Source of the DNA: an uncultured Eudoraea sp.
Lineage (GTDB): Bacteria; Bacteroidota; Bacteroidia; Flavobacteriales; Flavobacteriaceae
DNA length: 40,816 bases
Direction: 5' to 3'
Assembly: GCA_947258555.1 (NCBI GenBank)
Contig: CAMYJF010000026.1
Location: 1 to 40,816 of the forward strand
A program made the position numbers and the translations under genes. The notes below the pieces were generated by a model that saw only the letters and a list, made by a program, of their open reading frames with translations, did not search any database and was not told where the DNA came from. How positions within the stretch are numbered: position 1 is the stretch's first letter; the number at the start of each line of letters is the position of its first letter. Positions 3,907 to 17,502 of the stretch are shown here, piece by piece.

Positions 3907-6062
3907 TGCGGGGAGCTAACTTCTTTGATTCGCATGTTGTCGTAGGTCATAATGTAAGCGGCAATATTGTAAAACCCTGCACGCATATCCCGGGCATAAT
4001 TGAATTTATTAGCCGAGTATTCTGTTACACCGATCTCTCCGGAAACCTCGATCAGGTCCGGTTTATAAGCTAATTTCAATAGAAGATCATAGCCCAGGTC
4101 AAATCCCCGGATCGCATATCTGTCTGGCGCTTTACCAAATCGACGCTCATATTTTTTGCTGAAATCGCTTCCATTCTCCTCGCCGCTTATAGATGGGTAT
4201 GTAAACCTAAGGCTGGATAAATGGGATCCTGAGATCACATCATTTTCAAAGGCTTTATTCTTGTTCGTTGTAAACATACGCACCTTAGTTAGTTCTGTAT
4301 TCGAAGAGTTCAGGATAGAGCTTATACTGGACACGAACTTAGAATTATCCGATTCTACGAATACCCAATTCTCTTTTTCTTCTGAAAGCAGGAGTGCAAA
4401 TTTCTCCAGGTCTACAGCGATATTTTTTTCCTCCTCTGTAAGATCTACCACAGTTGCGTCCTCAAAGTGTGACAAGATCTCATCCCGTTCAAGTTCATGA
4501 AGATTGTCTGCAATGATGATCACTTTTTGATCTGTAACCTGCTCCTTCATATACAAGAGCATTTTCTCCCTCATGGCTTTCTCTGAAGGTACTGAATAAA
4601 AGACATTGGACAAACTAAGATCAGTTTCGGAGCTCAGCGGCGCTACGACCGGGATATCATATTTGGCAGCTTCCATGGAAACGGCAGTAAGCGCCTTGGC
4701 TTGTAATGGACCAAAGATCATATCATACCTGCTCAGGTCTTCGCCCATGAGAAGCAATCTGGCCTTCTCATCACTTAGCTCTGTATCCAGGGTTTTCACA
4801 TCTACAGAGATCCCCAGTTCCGCTATAGAATCCAGGGCGACCAGCAATCCCGAATACAGTCCAAAACTATATTTCATGGCATTACTATTCTCAATAGCAT
4901 TGGCCGAATTAGATTTTTCTCGCACATTGAGTCGATTCAATCGGAATGGCAACATGACCAGGATCTTGGGATTGATAGCTATGTTGATGCTATCCAAAAG
5001 ATCGATCCGATCGAGAATAAGGGAATTTTTTACATCCAGGTCGAGGGATTTTTCAATAGGGAGTTTTAAGACCATACCGGCCTTCAGTCCGTCTAACAGA
5101 TCCGGATTTGAGGCTTTTAGTTCGTCATAACTCACTTTCAACTGGCGAGTGAGCGAATAGATGGTCTGCTTGGGCTTCACTTCATAAAAAACGTAATTAT
5201 CCGTACTGATCTCCAGGTCGGGCACCATTTTTTGAGGTAGTCGAAGGACCATCCCTTCTTTTAGTCCGCTGGCTTCAACGATCTGTGGATTCAGTTTAAT
5301 GATCTCCTGGGAAGTGATCCCGTATTCCTTACTCAGGCTATATAAGGTCATTTTCGCCGGCACGGTATAGGACTCAAAAAGCTGGACTTCTTCTTCCAGG
5401 GCAGTGGCCGGTTTTGGCACCTGAAGTTCCTGGCCGGCAGCTACATAATTTGTTCCTGTTGCCAGTCTCGGGTTAAGGGCTACCAGACTATCTATGGTGA
5501 TCCCATACCTATGGGCAATGCTCCAACGTGTTTCCTTTGGTTGCACCTCGTGCACCGTATAATCATTCGGGTCTATTTCCTCCACTTCCGGCAATTCAGG
5601 GTATTTAGGGATCTGCAGCCACATTCCTTTTTTCAAAGATGTAGAATAGAGTACGCGGTTATAACGTTTTATATCTTCTTCTGTGAGCTCATAGCGCCTT
5701 GAGATGCCAAAAAGTGTCTCCCTGCGTTTTACTTTATGGGTGAGAAAGCCCACGGGTCTTCGTTGTTCATCTAAAGCTTCGTCACTTGTATTTTCTTCTT
5801 TGACGATCTCCTTAGGGGGTTCATTTGAAATTCCTCCTGCCCCGGGAATAACGAGGACCATCCCCGGGGATAATTCATCCGATCTTTTGATATCCGAATT
5901 CACGCGCAATAAATTATACGGCGTTACCCGGTAGTCGCGGGCAATACTCATGACCGTTTCTCCTTCTTTTACTACATGAGTTTTCCTGTTCTGAGACCAG
6001 AGCGATCCAGGTAGCAAGAATGCCAGCAGCAGTACTGCTAATAATGTCCTTAGGTTTTTCAT
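3903..6062 (-). CDS. Five-LysM protein with C-terminal periplasmic-binding-protein-like domain
   Basis: A 719-residue secreted protein with a signal peptide (residues 1-23, ending LWSQ). Five LysM repeats follow at about 28-72, 108-152, 168-216, 231-276 and 291-335, each with the (Y/H)xVxxxxTxxSIxxxYgit...LxxxNP pattern ending in a (L/V)xIP-type strand. LysM binds the GlcNAc backbone of peptidoglycan. Residues about 366-705 look like a type I periplasmic binding protein (LivJ-like: KILVMLPFRLN, YDMIFGPLQAKALTAVS, IPVVAPLSSETDL, and a GFDLGYDLLLK segment). This pairing is familiar in Bacteroidota but its job is not established; a wall-anchored sensor or scaffold is a guess. It sits 1 nt after guaA and overlaps osmC by 4 nt. 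Confidence 0.88.
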   Translation of the reverse strand: MKNLRTLLAVLLLAFLLPGSLWSQNRKTHVVKEGETVMSIARDYRVTPYNLLRVNSDIKRSDELSPGMVLVIPGAGGISNEPPKEIVKEENTSDEALDEQRRPVGFLTHKVKRRETLFGISRRYELTEEDIKRYNRVLYSTSLKKGMWLQIPKYPELPEVEEIDPNDYTVHEVQPKETRWSIAHRYGITIDSLVALNPRLATGTNYVAAGQELQVPKPATALEEEVQLFESYTVPAKMTLYSLSKEYGITSQEIIKLNPQIVEASGLKEGMVLRLPQKMVPDLEISTDNYVFYEVKPKQTIYSLTRQLKVSYDELKASNPDLLDGLKAGMVLKLPIEKSLDLDVKNSLILDRIDLLDSINIAINPKILVMLPFRLNRLNVREKSNSANAIENSNAMKYSFGLYSGLLVALDSIAELGISVDVKTLDTELSDEKARLLLMGEDLSRYDMIFGPLQAKALTAVSMEAAKYDIPVVAPLSSETDLSLSNVFYSVPSEKAMREKMLLYMKEQVTDQKVIIIADNLHELERDEILSHFEDATVVDLTEEEKNIAVDLEKFALLLSEEKENWVFVESDNSKFVSSISSILNSSNTELTKVRMFTTNKNKAFENDVISGSHLSSLRFTYPSISGEENGSDFSKKYERRFGKAPDRYAIRGFDLGYDLLLKLAYKPDLIEVSGEIGVTEYSANKFNYARDMRAGFYNIAAYIMTYDNMRIKEVSSPQ

Positions 6063-6063
6063 T

Positions 6064-7596
6064 TTATTCCCATTCTATTGTAGCCGGGGGTTTTGAGCTG
6101 ATATCATAGACCACTCTATTGACACCGGGAACTTTATTGATTATTTCGTTCGATATTTCTTGTAAAAACTCATAGGGTAAATTTACCCAATCTGCCGTCA
6201 TGCCATCCGTACTTTCTACGGCTCTCAAGGCTACACATTTCTCATACGTTCGTTCATCTCCCATAACCCCTACACTATGTACGGGTAAAAGTATGGCTCC
6301 GGCCTGCCAGATGCTGTCATAAAGATCCCATTTTTGTAATCCTTCAATAAAAATGGCATCAACTTCCTGAAGCAAGGCCACCTTTTCGGGTGTAATATCG
6401 CCCAAAATGCGTATCGCCAGACCAGGTCCGGGAAAAGGGTGCCTCCCAAGGCGTTCTTTTGGTATCCCCAAACTGCTGCCCACTCTTCGCACCTCATCTT
6501 TAAACAGCATTTTAAGCGGTTCTACCACTTCCATCTTCATAAAATCGGGTAAGCCACCTACATTATGATGACTCTTGATCGTTGCCGAAGGTCCGCCGGA
6601 AGCGGATACGGATTCGATCCGATCCGGATAAATGGTTCCCTGTCCAAGCCAGCGGGCGTCTTTCACTTTATGCGCTTCATCGTCAAAAACTTCAATAAAA
6701 ACACGCCCGATGATCTTTCTCTTTTTCTCAGGATCATCTTCCCCTGCCAATGCTTCCAAAAAGCGTGCCGAAGCATCTACGCCTTTGACATTCAAGCCCA
6801 TTTTCTTGTATTGTTCCAACACATCTGTGAACTCATTCTTGCGCAACAAGCCGTTATTTACAAAAATGCAATTCAGTTGATCCCCGATAGCCTTTTGCAG
6901 GATCACTGCTGCTACGGTTGAATCTACCCCTCCGGATAATCCCAGAATGACATTGTCGGATCCAATTGTTTCTTTTAATTCGTCGACGGTGGAATCGACA
7001 AAGGCATCCGGTGTCCAGTCTTGTTTGATCCCGGTAATATGCACCAGGAAGTTTTCCAGGATCTGTTTGCCTTGCATGGTATGGTATACCTCGGGGTGAA
7101 ACTGTATCCCAAATGTGCATTCACCTTCAATACAGTAAGCTGCATTCTTAACATCATTGGTACTTGCCAATAACTTGCCTCCTTTGGGCAACTCCTGTAT
7201 GGTATCCCCGTGACTCATCCATACCTGCGAACCTTCTGTGATCTCGTAGAAAAAAGGTTCATCTGCCCGGATCGCCGATAAACGCGCTCTTCCATACTCC
7301 CGGGTATTCGATGCAGCTACAAGGCCTCCAAAGCTATGGGCCATATACTGGGCTCCATAACATATACCAAGGAGGGCTTTCTCGCCACGGATGCCGCTAA
7401 GGTCTACTTCCAGTATTTCGTCTGAACGAACGGAGTTAGGGGAACCGGATAGGATCACTGCCTTGTAAAGAGACAGGTCTTCAGGGATCTTATTAAAGGG
7501 TTTGATTTCACAATAAATATTCAGTTCTCTGACGCGGCGCGCGATCAATTGTGTATACTGAGAACCGAAGTCGAGGATCAGGACTTGATTTGCCAT
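6064..7596 (-). CDS. guaA: GMP synthase (glutamine-hydrolysing)
   Basis: GuaA aminates XMP to GMP using ATP and glutamine. The start at 7596 ([15 protein letters not shown]) matches the family's first residues; an upstream ATG at 7680 would add 28 unconserved residues and overlap the divergent SIMPL gene. The protein has 510 residues. The amidotransferase domain carries Cys79 (GICYGAQ) and His167/Glu169 (QFHPEV). The ATP pyrophosphatase P-loop SGGVDS is at 221-226, and the C-terminal dimerisation domain contains [13 protein letters not shown] and ends KPPATIEWE, the standard GuaA terminus. It is the first gene of a tight minus-strand run (1 nt to the LysM gene). A TATTTTTG box lies 4-11 nt before the start, which would give an almost leaderless mRNA. 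Confidence 0.97.
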
Positions 7597-7671
7597 GGGC
7601 AAAAATAAAAATTTGGGTCGGTTGAAAAAGCATCTTTTCGGTATATTTATACAAGCAAACAAACAACGTCC

Positions 7672-8043
7672 ATGAAACACCTCACCGCAATTATCTTTGG
7701 GGCCGCAATTGTTATAGCCGCACTGCTCCTGGGTAATTCCTATGTAAAGCGCGCCAATCCGCCACAGATCATCTCAGTTACCGGCTTGGGAAACAAGGAT
7801 TTTGTCTCCGATCTCATTGTTTGGGAAGGCCGTTTTAATGCCAGCAATGTTGAGCTCAAAGCCGCTTTTGATCAATTGATCAGGGATAAGGACCAGGTAA
7901 AAAATTATCTGATCTCTAAAGGTCTTAAGGAAGAGAATATCATTTTCGAAGCGACTGGAGTACAAAGTGAATTAATAAAAAAGAAAAACCCCGTAGTACG
8001 AACTACGGGGACTTCAAAATCAAAAACCAACCTAAACACATGA
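7672..8043 (+). CDS. Truncated SIMPL (DUF541) domain protein, probable gene remnant
   Basis: A 123-residue reading frame. Residues 1-24 form a signal anchor ([19 protein letters not shown]); then [24 protein letters not shown] and [25 protein letters not shown] are the first half of a SIMPL/DUF541 domain. Flavobacterial members that I recall are about 230-240 residues long, so the second half is missing. Family likeness stops near residue 103 (about position 7980). The last 20 residues ([11 protein letters not shown]...) are translated from a palindrome and following AT-rich DNA and look non-native. It is divergent from guaA. The truncated product might still be made, but a working SIMPL fold is unlikely. 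Confidence 0.7.
7981..8010 (-). terminator. Perfect 9-bp palindrome, intrinsic terminator on the minus strand
   Basis: CCCCGTAGT (7989-7997) and ACTACGGGG (8002-8010) form a perfect 9-bp stem around a 4-nt loop. On the minus strand the stem is followed directly by a U-rich run (complement of aaaaaagaaaaa), the textbook layout of an intrinsic terminator for leftward transcription. On the plus strand no U-run follows. No minus-strand gene ends here: the next leftward gene on that strand, bshC, ends at 8720 with a plus-strand gene in between. The terminator lies inside the 3' end of the truncated SIMPL frame. Confidence 0.65.
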
Positions 8044-8185
8044 ACTTATTATAACTAACTCAAACTTTTAAATTATGGTTTGAATATTTTCTTTTTCATA
8101 GCAATTTGATTATAAAACAAGCATCTAAGGAAATACCCTACCTTAATTCTTATTTTTTTTATTATTTTTTTCTAAATATCTGATA

Positions 8186-8731
8186 ATGAGCCAGTCATAC
8201 TACAAAAAAATAGTTGATTCCTTGCAGGAAGCAGTGGAAAATAGGTCGCATCCCTTCAAGATCTTCACCCTGGGAACCGTTGGATTAGATCGCATGGCGC
8301 GACTCAGAACGGTAGTACTTCGCGATATTACGGCAAATCAGGAATTGGTGTTTTACACGGATAGAAGATCTAAGAAAGTCACCCATATGAAGGAGAACAA
8401 TAAAGTGGGTATGCTTTTTTATGATCAGGAAAATAAAATTCAGCTTAAAGCCGAAGGCGTGGCCAGCCTGATCAAAGATGAGGACATATTAGCGGGATTA
8501 TGGAAGGATATTGCCGAAGTAAACAGGAAGGACTACACAACTACAACCCCACCGGGAAGTATTGTAAAACATCCGGACGATGTTGAATATTTAAAGGACA
8601 AGGATTATTTCACTGCTGTCAAGGTAACTCTCTTCAAACTAGAATACCTGCAACTGCAACCCGTTAATCATATTAAGATCCGGTATTCAAAACTCGAAGG
8701 CAATTGGGTAAGTGAATATCTAGTACCGTAA
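8186..8731 (+). CDS. Pyridoxamine 5'-phosphate oxidase-like flavoprotein
   Basis: A 181-residue member of the PNPOx-like split-barrel FMN-binding superfamily. RMARLRTVVLRDIT (residues 36-49), ELVFYTDRRSKKVTHMKEN (54-72) and VGMLFYDQENKIQLKAEGVA are the core strands that hold FMN phosphate in this group (Alr4036-type pyridoxamine 5'-phosphate oxidase family). It lacks the C-terminal substrate-binding RxxR-type region of true PdxH, so PLP synthesis should not be assumed. Cytosolic. It converges on bshC, and the two stop codons overlap by 12 nt. The gap upstream (8044-8185) is very AT-rich with no clear promoter box. Confidence 0.85.
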   Translation: MSQSYYKKIVDSLQEAVENRSHPFKIFTLGTVGLDRMARLRTVVLRDITANQELVFYTDRRSKKVTHMKENNKVGMLFYDQENKIQLKAEGVASLIKDEDILAGLWKDIAEVNRKDYTTTTPPGSIVKHPDDVEYLKDKDYFTAVKVTLFKLEYLQLQPVNHIKIRYSKLEGNWVSEYLVP

Positions 8732-10321
8732 TACAGTAAATCTGAGATCGAGCGGATCCAGATTCTTTTGAAGGCCTTGCAAGAGGCCCTCTCCTAATTC
8801 CAAATAAAATTGAGAGAAATTCACCTGCCTCTCCTGCAAACTTCCATTTGGGAATAAGGCTTGTTGTATTTCTGTCATCCGTTCTACCTGGTCTTTTAGT
8901 TTTCTCTTCTGTGCTTTCAAAAGTCGTTTTTCAAGATGTTCCAGGCCCTTGACCTGTTTGCGTTCTTGCGCCTTTACGGCCCCCAGGAAAGAGGCATCGG
9001 TTTGTGTGGCCAGATCAAGCAGGTTCTTGAATTGTTCCTGTAGTACTTCCTTCTGAGGATTAAAGTCGATTATAATATTCGATATCTCCCTTACTTTCTT
9101 ATTGATAAACCGATTTGTATCGAGGAAAATATCAGGGAGTTCGATTTGAAGTTTTTCTAATTTGTTTCCTTGTTTCTCAGACATCAGCAAAGCTGAATTC
9201 CGAAGCAAGAGCACGGGCAGTGGAATATCAAAGGCTTCAAAAGTGCTTTTTAATTGCAGCCAATAGGCGATCTCTCCCCCACCCCCTATATAACACAGGT
9301 TGGGAAGGATACATTCCTGGTATACAGGCCGCATGATCACATTAGGTGAAAAACGTTCGGGATGTTCGGCTATTTCTTTTTTAAGTTCAGCTTGACTGAA
9401 ACGCAGGTCTGAATTCAAAACCTGGTATTCCCCGTCTGTAAATACCATCCGTTCCCTCAATCCCGGGATCAGATAGAAATAGTTGATCTCCCTGGGATTC
9501 ACCTGCACTTTGTAAGGGAGGTTTTTTGCTTTCCATTTAGCCAGGGTATCGTTCACATTCTTAAATCCTGTTTGCTTAAGAATGTCACCTTCCATTAATG
9601 GAATTGACAGCTCCTTTAATTTTTTATCGTCACCGTCAATGATGACAAGTCCAAGGGATCCAAACAGCTCATTGGCCAAATATCGGGTAGCCGCTGTGAG
9701 ACTATCGTGATCCTCATATGCCTTCTTAAATAGGGATGCCAGGTATTGTCCTTTTTCAGACGTCCCAAGTTCATCCGGTAGCCTTTCGCCTAATTTCTCG
9801 AGTCCGTTTGTTTTGAAATGACCGACTGCCCCGGAGGAATCTGCATTCCATACCCACTTCTTTCCGTGTAAGGTAAAATGATTGATCTCTTCAAAATCGT
9901 GATCCTCCGTAGCCATCCAGAATACAGGCACGAAGTTTTTCTTTGGATGTGCCTTTTTTAATTGAGCACATAAATTGACAACGGAGATGATCTTGTAGAA
10001 AACATATAAAGGGCCGGTAAAAAGATTGAGTTGATGGCCGGTTACTACAGTAAACGTACTATCCGAACCCAGCGATTCTATGTTTTTTTGAGTAGTCTTC
10101 GAGAGGGTCAGTGTCTCATTTTGCTTTTCGACGGCCTCTTGAAGAATGGGTCGGTAAGAAGTTGGATATGAAGCCGCTTTCTCTTCGATCTGGGCTGCAT
10201 ATTCCTCCAGTTTAGGAAAGCGATTATAGAATGGCCTGACATCTTTGTGCTGGTCTAAATAATCACATATGAGTGAGGAAAAATATCCGGTATCGCAGTA
10301 AGGTATTTTATCAACCTTCAT
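8720..10321 (-). CDS. bshC: Bacillithiol biosynthesis cysteine-adding enzyme BshC
   Basis: BshC ligates cysteine to glucosaminyl-malate, the last step to bacillithiol, the low-molecular-weight thiol used by Firmicutes and many Bacteroidota. The start at 10321 (MKVDKIPYCDTGYFS) gives 533 residues, the normal length; an ATG at 10393 only adds a non-conserved leader. Characteristic segments are VTGHQLNLFTGPLYVFYKI (about residues 90-110), VPVFWMATEDHDFEEIN, and a long C-terminal coiled-coil-like region rich in Lys/Glu/Gln (about 420-510). Bacillithiol synthesis also needs BshA and BshB, which are not in this window. It is divergent from the M14 peptidase gene and convergent with the PNPOx-like gene. 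Confidence 0.95.
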   Translation of the reverse strand: MKVDKIPYCDTGYFSSLICDYLDQHKDVRPFYNRFPKLEEYAAQIEEKAASYPTSYRPILQEAVEKQNETLTLSKTTQKNIESLGSDSTFTVVTGHQLNLFTGPLYVFYKIISVVNLCAQLKKAHPKKNFVPVFWMATEDHDFEEINHFTLHGKKWVWNADSSGAVGHFKTNGLEKLGERLPDELGTSEKGQYLASLFKKAYEDHDSLTAATRYLANELFGSLGLVIIDGDDKKLKELSIPLMEGDILKQTGFKNVNDTLAKWKAKNLPYKVQVNPREINYFYLIPGLRERMVFTDGEYQVLNSDLRFSQAELKKEIAEHPERFSPNVIMRPVYQECILPNLCYIGGGGEIAYWLQLKSTFEAFDIPLPVLLLRNSALLMSEKQGNKLEKLQIELPDIFLDTNRFINKKVREISNIIIDFNPQKEVLQEQFKNLLDLATQTDASFLGAVKAQERKQVKGLEHLEKRLLKAQKRKLKDQVERMTEIQQALFPNGSLQERQVNFSQFYLELGEGLLQGLQKNLDPLDLRFTVLRY

Positions 10322-10401
10322 AATAATCGTAATCCCGCCAAAGATAGAATTCCTCTCCCATTCTATGGCGGTTTTGGGGGGATAAGTTAACATTTATTTA
10401 G

Positions 10402-10409
10402 TAGCTTTG
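10402..10409 (+). promoter_or_regulatory. Candidate -7 element upstream of the M14 peptidase gene
   Basis: TAGCTTTG matches TAnnTTTG and lies 26 nt before the ATG at 10436. A TTTG occurs about 25 nt upstream (10373-10376), slightly further than usual. Motif match only. Confidence 0.4.
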
Positions 10410-10435
10410 GTAGCACACCAATCACTTACTAATCA

Positions 10436-12895
10436 ATGAAAAAATTCTACACTGGCCTTCTGAGCCTTTTCTGTTTATCCCTGTTTGGACAAGCCCTGCA
10501 ATCGCCATCCGATTTTCTCGGATATGAGCTCGGCACCCAATTTACAAGGCATCACGAAGTAGTAGATTATTACGAACAAGTTGCCAGGGCCGAACCGGGT
10601 CGTGTCAAACTCATCAGCTACGGAAAAACAAATGAACGCAGGCCCTTGCTTTTAGCCTACCTGAGTTCGGCAGAGAATATGGCAAATCTGGAAGAGATCC
10701 GCCAGGCGCATTTAGCCAGCACTACAGGTGGACCCGTTTCTGAAAAAGCCATCGTGTGGCTTAGCTATAATGTTCATGGAAATGAGAGCGTGAGTACAGA
10801 GGCATCGATGCAAACCATCTATGAGCTGCTGACAAAGAAAGCCGACTACCTTGAAAATACAGTTGTGATCATGGATCCCTGCATCAACCCGGATGGCCGA
10901 GACCGCTATGTAAACTGGTATAATCAATACAAGAATACCCCGTTTAATGTAGATCCCAACAGTAAGGAACATCACGAAGGATGGTGGAGCGGTCGGAGTA
11001 ATCACTATATGTTCGACCTGAATCGGGATTGGGCATGGCTTTCCCAGGTAGAGAGTCAGCAGCGCCTAAAAAAATTCAATGAATGGCTGCCGCATATCCA
11101 TGTGGATTTCCATGAGCAAGGTGTAAATAATCCATATTTCTTTGCCCCGGCAGCGCAGCCTTATCACGAGGTTATAACCCAGTTTCAACGCGATTTCCAG
11201 GAAACGATCGGCAGGAACCACGCCCGGTATTTTGATGCTAATGGCTGGTTCTATTTTACAAAGGAAGTCTTCGATCTCTTTTATCCCAGCTATGGGGATA
11301 CCTATCCTACCTATAACGGAGGTATCGGCATGACCTATGAGCAGGGAGGCAGTGGCCGCGCCGGACTTGGCGTAATAACAGCTATTAAGGATACCCTGAC
11401 CTTACAAGACAGGATATCCCATCATCATACAACCGGCCTTTCCACAGTTGAAGTAGCTAAGAACAATGCCGGGCGTTTAACCGAAGAATTCCAAAAATTC
11501 TATCAGCGTAATAATTTCAAATACAAAAGCTACTTGCTGGATGGTGGGATAGATCAACTCACACAACTGGCAAGCCTGCTTGATAAACACCAGATCAAAT
11601 ACGGTAAGGGATCCGGAGTTTCTGCCAAAGGCTATAATTACAAAACAGGCCAAAACGGTAGTATAAGGGGTGGAGAAAACAGCCTGCTGATATCTGCTAA
11701 CCAGACTAAAGGCACCCTGGTTAAAGTACTTTTCGAGCCTGATGCCAAGTTAGTGGATTCGCTGACTTATGATATAACAGCCTGGTCCCTCCCCTATGCC
11801 TATGGCCTGAATGCCGTTGCCTCTGAGTCGGATCTCGGACAAGGAAATGGTAACTGGGAGAAAGGATCGGTGACCGCTTTGGATGTGAATACCAATGCAT
11901 ATGCCTATGTGACAGATTGGAACAGTATGGATGACGCCCGTTTCCTTGCCGACCTGCTCAAAAAAGGAATCCGCATTCGCAAGGCACATAAATCGTTTCA
12001 ACTTGAAGGAAAGAAGTATGCGCGTGGCAGTTTGATCATCACCCGTGCCGACAATGATGGCAAGCTTGATTTCCTTAACAGCCTAAAGGAAGCAGCCCAA
12101 AAACACAATAAAGACATCACCCCGGTTCAAACCGGATTTGTAGACAGCGGCAAGGACTTTGGCTCCTTCTATGTGGATATGATACCCAAAGCTAAAATAG
12201 CCTTGCTATCGGGCAATCCGGCAAGTACCCTCCGCTTTGGGGAGATCTGGCATTTCTTTGAACAGCAACTGCATTATCCTTTAACTGTGATCGATGCAGA
12301 TTATATTAACGGGGTAGACATGGCAGACTATGATGTCCTGATCCTGCCCGATGGCTGGGGTTACGGCAAATTTATGAATGAAGATCGTTTAAAGGAACTA
12401 AAAACATGGGTGCGGGAAGGCGGCAGGTTGATCGCCATGGGCCGATCCATCAAAGCCATTGATGGTGATGATGGTTTTAGTATAAAACTCAAAGAAGCCG
12501 AGAAAGAAGAGTCGGAGGAAAAAGTGGCACCCTTTGACAGCTCCCAACGCGAACAAATGAAAACTGCGATCACCGGGGCGATCTTTAAAACACGTGTAGA
12601 TACGTCTAACCCCTTGGCATATGGCTATGGGGACACCTATTTCACCTTAAAACTCGGTAATGATTCCTATAAATATTTAAAACGGGGAACGGCGGTATAC
12701 CTGGAAGACCAAACAAAGCCTTATTCCGGATTCGCCGGCAGTGAGGCGCAGAAAAAATTGGGGAAAACCCTCGTTTTCGGCATGGAGAACCACGGTCGCG
12801 GAGAAGTGGTTTATATGGTAGATAACCCCTTATTCAGAGCCTTCTGGGAAGGCGGCAAATTGTTCTTTGCAAATGCCCTGTTTATGGTAGATTAA
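10436..12895 (+). CDS. Secreted M14-family zinc carboxypeptidase with C-terminal GATase-like domain
   Basis: An 819-residue exported protein (signal peptide 1-19, ending LFGQ). Residues about 30-330 form the M14 carboxypeptidase domain. Zinc ligands His114 and Glu117 lie in VHGNES and His226 in VDFHEQG. NPDGRDR (151-157) is the conserved substrate-binding motif, and Glu302 in TYEQGG is the likely catalytic base. The segment between NPDGRDR and NHYMFDLNRDW is complete here, including the EHHEGWWSGR stretch (178-187). The C-terminal part (about 585-690) resembles a class I glutamine-amidotransferase/ThuA-like fold (KIALLSGNP, YDVLILPDGWG, WVREGGRLIAMG) without a clear catalytic Cys. It probably digests peptides in the periplasm or outside the cell. 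A second, broken paralogue lies at 38203-40673. Confidence 0.93.
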   Translation: MKKFYTGLLSLFCLSLFGQALQSPSDFLGYELGTQFTRHHEVVDYYEQVARAEPGRVKLISYGKTNERRPLLLAYLSSAENMANLEEIRQAHLASTTGGPVSEKAIVWLSYNVHGNESVSTEASMQTIYELLTKKADYLENTVVIMDPCINPDGRDRYVNWYNQYKNTPFNVDPNSKEHHEGWWSGRSNHYMFDLNRDWAWLSQVESQQRLKKFNEWLPHIHVDFHEQGVNNPYFFAPAAQPYHEVITQFQRDFQETIGRNHARYFDANGWFYFTKEVFDLFYPSYGDTYPTYNGGIGMTYEQGGSGRAGLGVITAIKDTLTLQDRISHHHTTGLSTVEVAKNNAGRLTEEFQKFYQRNNFKYKSYLLDGGIDQLTQLASLLDKHQIKYGKGSGVSAKGYNYKTGQNGSIRGGENSLLISANQTKGTLVKVLFEPDAKLVDSLTYDITAWSLPYAYGLNAVASESDLGQGNGNWEKGSVTALDVNTNAYAYVTDWNSMDDARFLADLLKKGIRIRKAHKSFQLEGKKYARGSLIITRADNDGKLDFLNSLKEAAQKHNKDITPVQTGFVDSGKDFGSFYVDMIPKAKIALLSGNPASTLRFGEIWHFFEQQLHYPLTVIDADYINGVDMADYDVLILPDGWGYGKFMNEDRLKELKTWVREGGRLIAMGRSIKAIDGDDGFSIKLKEAEKEESEEKVAPFDSSQREQMKTAITGAIFKTRVDTSNPLAYGYGDTYFTLKLGNDSYKYLKRGTAVYLEDQTKPYSGFAGSEAQKKLGKTLVFGMENHGRGEVVYMVDNPLFRAFWEGGKLFFANALFMVD

Positions 12896-17334: not shown

Positions 17335-17502
17335 AAAAAAAAAGCCCACATCGATGAAGTTTTGTACAAACTCCATTAAACAGGTTTAGGGCTAACAGCT
17401 TGCTCAAGGATCCTCTACAAGGAGGCCTGCTTTTACAAACTAAACTCACCCTTTTCAAACAAATTAGTGTTGAGTTTGTCAAAAATTATTACCAATGTGG
17501 GC
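17335..17502 (-). ncRNA. ssrS: 6S RNA-like gene (ssrS)
   Basis: The minus strand folds as a long imperfect hairpin. GCCCACAU (from 17502) pairs with AUGUGGGC (ending 17344) to close an RNA of about 159 nt. ACAAACUC pairs with GAGUUUGU further in, GUUUAG pairs with CUAAAC, and AGCAG/CUGUU and CCUC/GAGG make the apical arms. A run of nine U follows at once (17343-17335). Size, a single bulged rod and the U-run end fit 6S RNA, which binds housekeeping RNA polymerase. Position supports it: 6S genes lie next to zapA in many bacteria, and zapA ends 28 nt upstream. The identification is by structure and context, not by a covariance search. Confidence 0.72.

Follow-up and report, generated by a model that had tools for sequence, protein, structure and literature searches.

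A putative small RNA gene beside a truncated SIMPL gene in Eudoraea and its candidate partner RNA in Flavobacteriaceae

In the GcvB/SroC and ChiX/chbBC systems a decoy RNA titrates a repressing sRNA, and the decoys derive from mRNAs. The putative RNA gene described here, Y, has a promoter-like element and a terminator of its own, unlike those decoys.

Sponge or antagonist RNAs are known in Vibrio cholerae (PMC9732341, available part), and a cis-encoded sRNA antagonist with RNase III processing has been described (PMC8687705, available part). As far as these accounts go, the present case is similar in that one sRNA, Y, would pair with another, here called X. It differs in the bacteria and the sequences concerned, in that Y would be a mimic of a start codon, and in that the promoter motif of Y is that of a putative ECF regulon with one candidate target inside it.

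The Rfp sRNAs of Flavobacterium psychrophilum, among them Rfp18, come from the same family, Flavobacteriaceae, as the host of X and Y, and the available part of that paper also gives an ECF-type promoter motif (PMC9723704). Rfp18 is said there to pair through its third stem-loop, whereas X would pair by an unpaired linker. X may be one of the Rfp RNAs, which are known here by description and not by sequence.

Signalling by FecI, FecR and a TonB receptor has been reviewed (PMC9249621, available part), and the genome studied here has genes for an ECF sigma factor, FecR and a TonB receptor in that order. In this case, in contrast to the signalling outlined there, one promoter motif is common to Y and a divergent lipoprotein gene.

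No description of X, Y or their proposed circuit was found in Rfam or in the titles and abstract openings of the open literature searched, and PMC9723704, to judge from the part available, was the only directly relevant paper among the matches listed; PMC11109978 contains none of six terms looked for in it. Should X and Y be real, they form two conserved RNA families that bring a pairing hypothesis with them: the seed is constant, there is a mimic, and both are linked to cell-surface signalling. An apparent oddity such as a truncated gene can conceal a conserved RNA gene.

The SIMPL deletion and the palindrome

The window, which is the whole stretch of 40,816 nucleotides that was analysed, belongs to a draft genome of 2.73 Mb in 104 contigs (95%-complete; G000 in Table 1). 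A sequence-only reading had proposed a SIMPL gene cut short at a palindrome that may mark the boundary of a small inserted element or of a short antisense RNA ending in that gene. The perfect 9-bp palindrome with its minus-strand U-run is present exactly as described, as CCCCGTAGT-ACGA-ACTACGGGG at 7989-8010, with nine stem pairs (six G-C) and the minus-strand tail TTTTTCTTTT. It is the richest in G-C pairs among the terminator-like sites in a scan of 5000-11000, and 100 dinucleotide shuffles of the window gave no match to the palindrome. The AT-rich flank is likewise there, with 21.7% GC at 8011-8185 against 43.7% in the window, and so is the small frame MKKKIFKP-stop, on the minus strand at 8099-8073.

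The truncation itself has another origin. The SIMPL reading frame is genuine to about residue 93 and has a Pfam match at residues 34-102 of 123; true homology to the relatives ends at about 7951, and a frameshifted tail then crosses the palindrome. The homologue has 241 amino acids in one congener (G002) and at least 229 in the other (G001), where a contig end cuts the gene. Compared with each of them, 422 bp are missing from the gene in the window: both congeners align to the window through query position 281 and resume at 280, with extra bases between. The ancestral stop would fall at 7973-7975, and because the loss shifts the frame, reading runs beyond it into the hairpin. The deletion is internal and precedes the old stop, which rules out the palindrome as the cause of the truncation. 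In the congeners, whose genes are without the deletion and thus do not share the truncation, the palindrome also lies downstream of the native stop. The SIMPL deletion and the palindrome with Y are separate, independent events. A search of the 95%-complete assembly for the lost C-terminal part gave one match, to residues 1-97, and no second location for that part. The species is represented by a single genome, and an assembly error may be an alternative source of the 422-bp loss.

A truncated SIMPL gene followed by an AT-rich stretch with a palindrome is what an inserted mobile element or its scar could leave behind. This origin is hardly conceivable here, since both congeners have the same intergenic stretch after a SIMPL gene without the deletion and bases were lost rather than gained. 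The full flank proved to be single-copy in the genome of the window when copies of it with the palindrome were sought. Neither the repeated copies nor the empty site in relatives that would mark an insertion sequence or MITE was found, and the congeners refute such an element.

The stem itself does recur. Stems resembling CCCYGTAGT-N4-ACTACRGGG were found at ten places in the genome, including the window, with up to three mismatches (reversed control 0), and several of them are flanked by an A-run and a T-run. The terminator alone might then be functional, as a member of a repeated stem family of this genome, and the remainder an AT-rich spacer. This is very improbable, because conservation between genera lies in the flank, and the stem differs in sequence while its pairing is kept. 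The earlier statement that no leftward gene ends at the palindrome holds for protein genes, whereas a leftward RNA gene seems to end there.

Table 1. Features of the locus and related sites. Coordinates without a prefix are those of the window; C, contig; L, locus.
Feature	Location	Strand	Basis or remark
SIMPL/DUF541 gene remnant, 123-aa ORF	7672..8043	+	homologues in G001, G002
Junction of 422-bp internal deletion	7951..7952	.	2-bp GC overlap; 422 mod 3 = 2
Putative RNA gene Y, ~130 nt, presumed transcript ends	7979..8108	-	conserved blocks, promoter-like element, terminator
Y intrinsic terminator hairpin (the palindrome of the sequence-only reading)	7989..8010; U-run 7988-7977	-	compensated pairs
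Second conserved block of Y, minus-strand AAGTTCATGTGTTTAGGTTGGTTTTTGATTTTGA	8015..8049	-	alignment
Tiny frame MKKKIFKP, start-codon-like part of Y 5' segment	8073..8099	-	probably not a gene
Y 5' segment AAATTGCTATGAAAAAGAAAAT	8086..8107	-	22-nt complementarity to RNA X
-10-like element TGTTTTA of Y promoter	8113..8119	-	motif comparison
-35-like element GTAGGGT of Y promoter	8135..8141	-	spacing to seed (see text)
Divergent pyridoxamine 5'-phosphate oxidase-like (PNPOx-like) gene	8186..8731	+	Pfam
Recurring terminator stem	7989-8010; G000 C10:44623, C3:40048, C9:66731, C13:43585, C13:46543		CCCYGTAGT-N4-ACTACRGGG-like
Recurring terminator stem, further sites	G000 C15:95757, C27:21127, C25:19294, C25:20669		CCCYGTAGT-N4-ACTACRGGG-like
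Exact promoter motif sites, G000	Y; two lipoprotein genes; 55-codon ORF; C24:23207
Type-B RNA beside type-A RNA (Maribacter)	L122, L123, L125, L130, L131, L142, L144, L145, L148, L149, L150, L151, L154, L177, L184
RNA X	G000:C23:23463-23562	+	downstream of dnaJ (DnaJ by Pfam)

The candidate RNA gene Y and its promoter-like element

Comparison of 7976-8186 with 199 genomes of the family gave matches in other genera of Flavobacteriaceae with E values down to 1.2e-21; matches were obtained in 108 genomes, many of them solely through the 22-nt part of X. Across genera the similarity consists of either one long match or two blocks. Read on the minus strand, the loci share a layout in which GTAGGGT, 15 nt and TGTTNTA precede the seed AAATTGCTATGAAAAAGA; after a stretch that varies come AATTCATGTGTTTAGGTTGGTTTTTGATTTTGAT and the intrinsic terminator.

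The seed was found in 71 distinct contexts: 45 of type A with GTAGGGT, the window included, 20 of type B and six without a terminator. Type-A copies were classed by GTAGGGT, and the informative result is therefore not the presence of the motif but its spacing: 40 of 44 distinct copies have it at a distance of 33 or 34 nt from the seed. In an alignment of 34 of the 45 type-A copies, which had been selected for having a terminator but not for its base changes, the pairing of the terminator stem is kept by two-sided changes in 7 of 11 pairs. The RNA of the window has a fold z of -3.6. With these features, Y very probably exists as an RNA gene.

The suggestion of a short RNA has support at the level of sequence. 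A promoter-like element on the minus strand, conserved blocks and a covarying terminator in several genera agree with it, but Y would converge on the SIMPL gene and not be antisense to it, because the last base of the U-run is at about 7977, past the ancestral stop.

In type B, all 20 copies of which are in Maribacter, a TGTAAG or CGTAAG element replaces GTAGGGT, and the copy adjoins a type-A copy in 15 of the 20 loci. The promoters of the type-B RNAs are TGTAAGG..CGAC-like, and many of their seeds are flanked by GAATAC/GTATTC.

A start codon is common at the seed, with ATG in 31 of 44 distinct copies, GTG or TTG in nine more and no usual start codon in four. The peptides begun by ATG have 1-21 residues and little similarity past the first of them. 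MKKKIFKP was rejected as a peptide gene, since 13 of 44 copies are without the ATG and neither length nor sequence of the peptides is constant.

In Rfam searches of the window only 6S-Flavo RNA reached its gathering score, away from Y (RF01685, positions 17368-17475 of the minus strand, 106 bits). Among 13 loci with X or Y no match was at or above the gathering score, and three sub-threshold matches had E values of 0.04-0.33.

The promoter-like motif GTAGGGT-N15-TGTTNTA has five exact sites in the genome of the window, and the reversed control has none. One of the five, at C24:23207, lies inside a gene that we take to be dapD; near-identical counterparts of this site occur in four other genomes (G002, G088, G105 and G127), and it is probably due to chance. 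Another precedes a conserved ORF of 55 codons, apparently a small membrane protein (G000:C6:29529-29557, L313; G002:C142, L453), and a similar small membrane-like protein follows the motif in G106 (L447). When one mismatch is allowed the genome has 10 sites against 9 in the control. One of these sites, which separates the ECF sigma gene from FecR, with the TonB receptor gene next and a lipoprotein gene divergent, therefore counts by its position only.

In the 199 genomes of the family the exact motif was found at 230 sites and the reversed pattern at 35. Thirteen pairs of divergent sites, 0.6-0.9 kb apart, have FecR on one side in all 13 cases and, on the other side, a lipoprotein gene in nine and no ORF found in four. 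The class counts among the motif sites that were read are biased, because these include the 13 loci chosen as divergent pairs; of the 17 sites in the lipoprotein class L371 and L438, at the least, look misassigned, and the class without a gene took in one or more Y sites (L433). Other motif sites, one being subtracted for Y, average 2.8 in the genomes whose Y seed was verified and 0.8 in the remaining 177, a difference to which shared ancestry may contribute; as the genomes are related, its P values serve as no more than a guide. The verified group consists of 22 of the 199 genomes, with G077 counted and five genomes left out in which the match was weak or confined to the second block.

Since the same motif precedes the FecR and lipoprotein genes of the ECF sigma/FecR locus, Y probably belongs to the regulon of that locus. 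Its promoter is most likely that of the ECF sigma/FecR sigma factor, as far as motif and gene order can tell.

The neighbourhood of Y offers another explanation for the conservation. In 8 of 10 loci whose neighbours were read by eye a PNPOx-like gene lies to the right of Y, whereas the left neighbour varies and is guaA-like in four of the 10. The conserved stretch might be the control region or leader of this plus-strand gene together with a bidirectional terminator of the left gene, and the A-run ahead of the stem in 41 of 44 copies would permit termination on the plus strand too. We consider this improbable. The GTAGGGT/TGTT element is directed leftwards at a fixed spacing to the seed, precedes the FecR and lipoprotein genes in their own sense, and in Maribacter a second RNA of type B so often adjoins the first; moreover, Y persists beside other right-hand neighbours in L087 and L092. 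Neither the window nor its congeners have a TATCTTTA box 16 nt to the right of ACCCTACC, but 5 of the 12 loci shown (15 tried) do. In those five the box suggests a separate start for the divergent gene, and a plus-strand transcript would begin there, past the conserved blocks. A part of the conservation in the Y region could nevertheless serve the PNPOx-like gene.

The putative RNA X and its complementarity to Y

The 18-nt seed of Y has one further exact occurrence in the genome, in the opposite sense, downstream of dnaJ. This is the locus of X, of which 45 examples in Flavobacteriaceae were taken; L193 was dropped as Y-like, L196 had no match and 43 were aligned. The sequence CTTTTTCATAGCAA is invariant in the 43, partly by choice because a match to the pairing segment was what brought a locus into the set. 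The other features of X played no part in that choice. X has a hairpin at its 5' end and a terminator, 10 of 17 pairs being compensated.

In all 43 loci a TAnnTT[T/A]G box lies 36-43 nt ahead of the CTTTTTC of the linker, a count that has no shuffle control beside it. The box matches the flavobacterial sigma-A consensus TAnnTTTG (PMC9723704, available part), and a sigma-A-type promoter was therefore assigned to X.

In a model search exactly one X was found in each of the 31 genomes with a type-A or type-B Y locus, and the 21-nt segment of X is identical in the 30 that were read, the 31st being without a locus. The order-wide search, under strict filters and at E <= 0.01, covered 395 genomes and gave X in 50 of them and Y in 41; 9-10 candidates were scored per genome there and four in the family search, so that absences in either mean little. 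We rely on the 11 of the 41 Y genomes with E < 1e-9, and all 11 have X at E <= 1.2e-15. Of 20 further X regions, 19 contain CTTTTTCATAGCAATTT without a change, and the one that lacks it is a weak match (L398). Six genomes have 3 to 8 copies of X (G393, G268, G485, G442, G132 of genus g131, and G120); the copies read keep the pairing core and vary in their 5' hairpins.

The 5' end of Y in the genome of the window is complementary to X over 22 nt. A cofold of the two RNAs has 22 intermolecular pairs at positions 1-22 of Y and an energy of -77.1, compared with -24.8 and -27.3 for the RNAs alone. As a partner of the X linker, Y has an energy of -26.7 and the best of 437 sampled gene starts -17.7; the sample consists of the first ATG of ORFs of at least 100 amino acids in about 454 kb, or 17% of the genome, with the lipoprotein stretch included deliberately. 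The full-length duplex of X and Y, at -33.0, is not outstanding among shuffled versions of Y (mean -24.6, sd 4.2, minimum -40.6), and this comparison was set aside as evidence because X is U-rich.

X is invariant in the 30 genomes read, and the changes in the seed of Y preserve a G-U pair with X in only 22 of 72 cases in type A but in 29 of 35 in type B. Position 7 of the type-B seed, for instance, has changed from C to T in 13 of 20 copies (such as L121, L125, L130 and L132), and the G-U pair is kept. From the complementarity and its conservation it is likely that X and Y pair with each other.

Matches to the seed in the genome were rejected as a list of targets, with 20 places at up to three mismatches (X and Y included) against 12 in the reversed control. 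At five of the 16 places that were read, an ATG begins an ORF of at least 61 codons.

A candidate target and the proposed circuit

The divergent lipoprotein gene of the ECF sigma/FecR locus has TCCAAATC[G/A]TT directly before its ATG in 8 of 9 Y-bearing genomes read. Over these eight the mean identity of the leader is 98% at positions -11 to -1, 61% at -30 to -12 and 77% in the first 24 coding bases; the lipoprotein gene of G185 (L426), which is without the leader motif, was left out of this profile, and the evidence for Y in G121 is its second block alone. Together with ATGAAAAAG the leader is close to the seed of Y and can pair with X. In the genome of the window it ranks 7th of the 437 starts by duplex energy with X. 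The leaders of the Y-bearing genomes have one constant mismatch and one wobble against X, for which pairing with X gives no explanation. The leader of G103, AAATTGCTATGAAAAA, is perfectly complementary to X, and neither X nor Y of that genome is among the matches of the family search, in which four candidates were scored per genome. The lipoprotein mRNA is a candidate target of X; the similarity of its leader to the seed is suggestive but not proof.

From the DNA we infer transcription of X and Y, recognition by the sigma factor, pairing in cells, the direction of control and the targets. The reading that we favour by some distance short of confidence is that Y is a trans-acting sRNA of the putative ECF/FecR regulon, a mimic of a start region that titrates X, and that the break in SIMPL is independent of it. 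A released ECF sigma factor would start transcription of Y from the regulon-like promoter. The 5' end of Y would copy a translation start region (AAAUUGCUAUGAAAAAG) and form the 22-bp duplex with the exposed linker of X. X, presumably made from its sigma-A-type promoter immediately after dnaJ, would ordinarily hold down mRNAs whose starts are of the AUGAAAAAG type, including the lipoprotein mRNA of the regulon itself, and Y as a decoy would free the mRNAs repressed by X.

On the direction of this control, with Y titrating X, the sequence comparisons leave the scales level. The circuit as a whole, in which a housekeeping X silences AUGAAAAAG-type starts of lipoproteins and secreted proteins across Flavobacteriaceae and a sponge made under ECF/FecR control relieves them, is put forward tentatively.

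The roles might instead be reversed or different, with Y a true sRNA that targets mRNAs through its second block, AGUUCAUGUGUUUAGGUUGGUUUUUGAUUUU, and X its antagonist or processing partner. Strong conservation of the second block and the likeness of its complement to a start region (..CCAACCUAAACACAUGAA) speak for this, and within the order sample X has confident matches in a larger number of genomes than Y. Yet no other site in the genome of the window fits 24 nt of the complement of the block with up to three mismatches, and there are genomes in which no Y was found but X is present, with as many as eight copies that have the same core. This arrangement is therefore doubtful. The presence of several copies of X where Y was not found also means that X needs other partners.

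If Y is the sponge and X the repressor, the tandem RNA of Maribacter may be a second sponge under a different ECF-like promoter, and two signals may converge on X.

One more type-B-like RNA, with GAATAT/ATATTC around its seed, was seen by eye in L193 (G043:C121:16400-17000) and lies outside the Y count.
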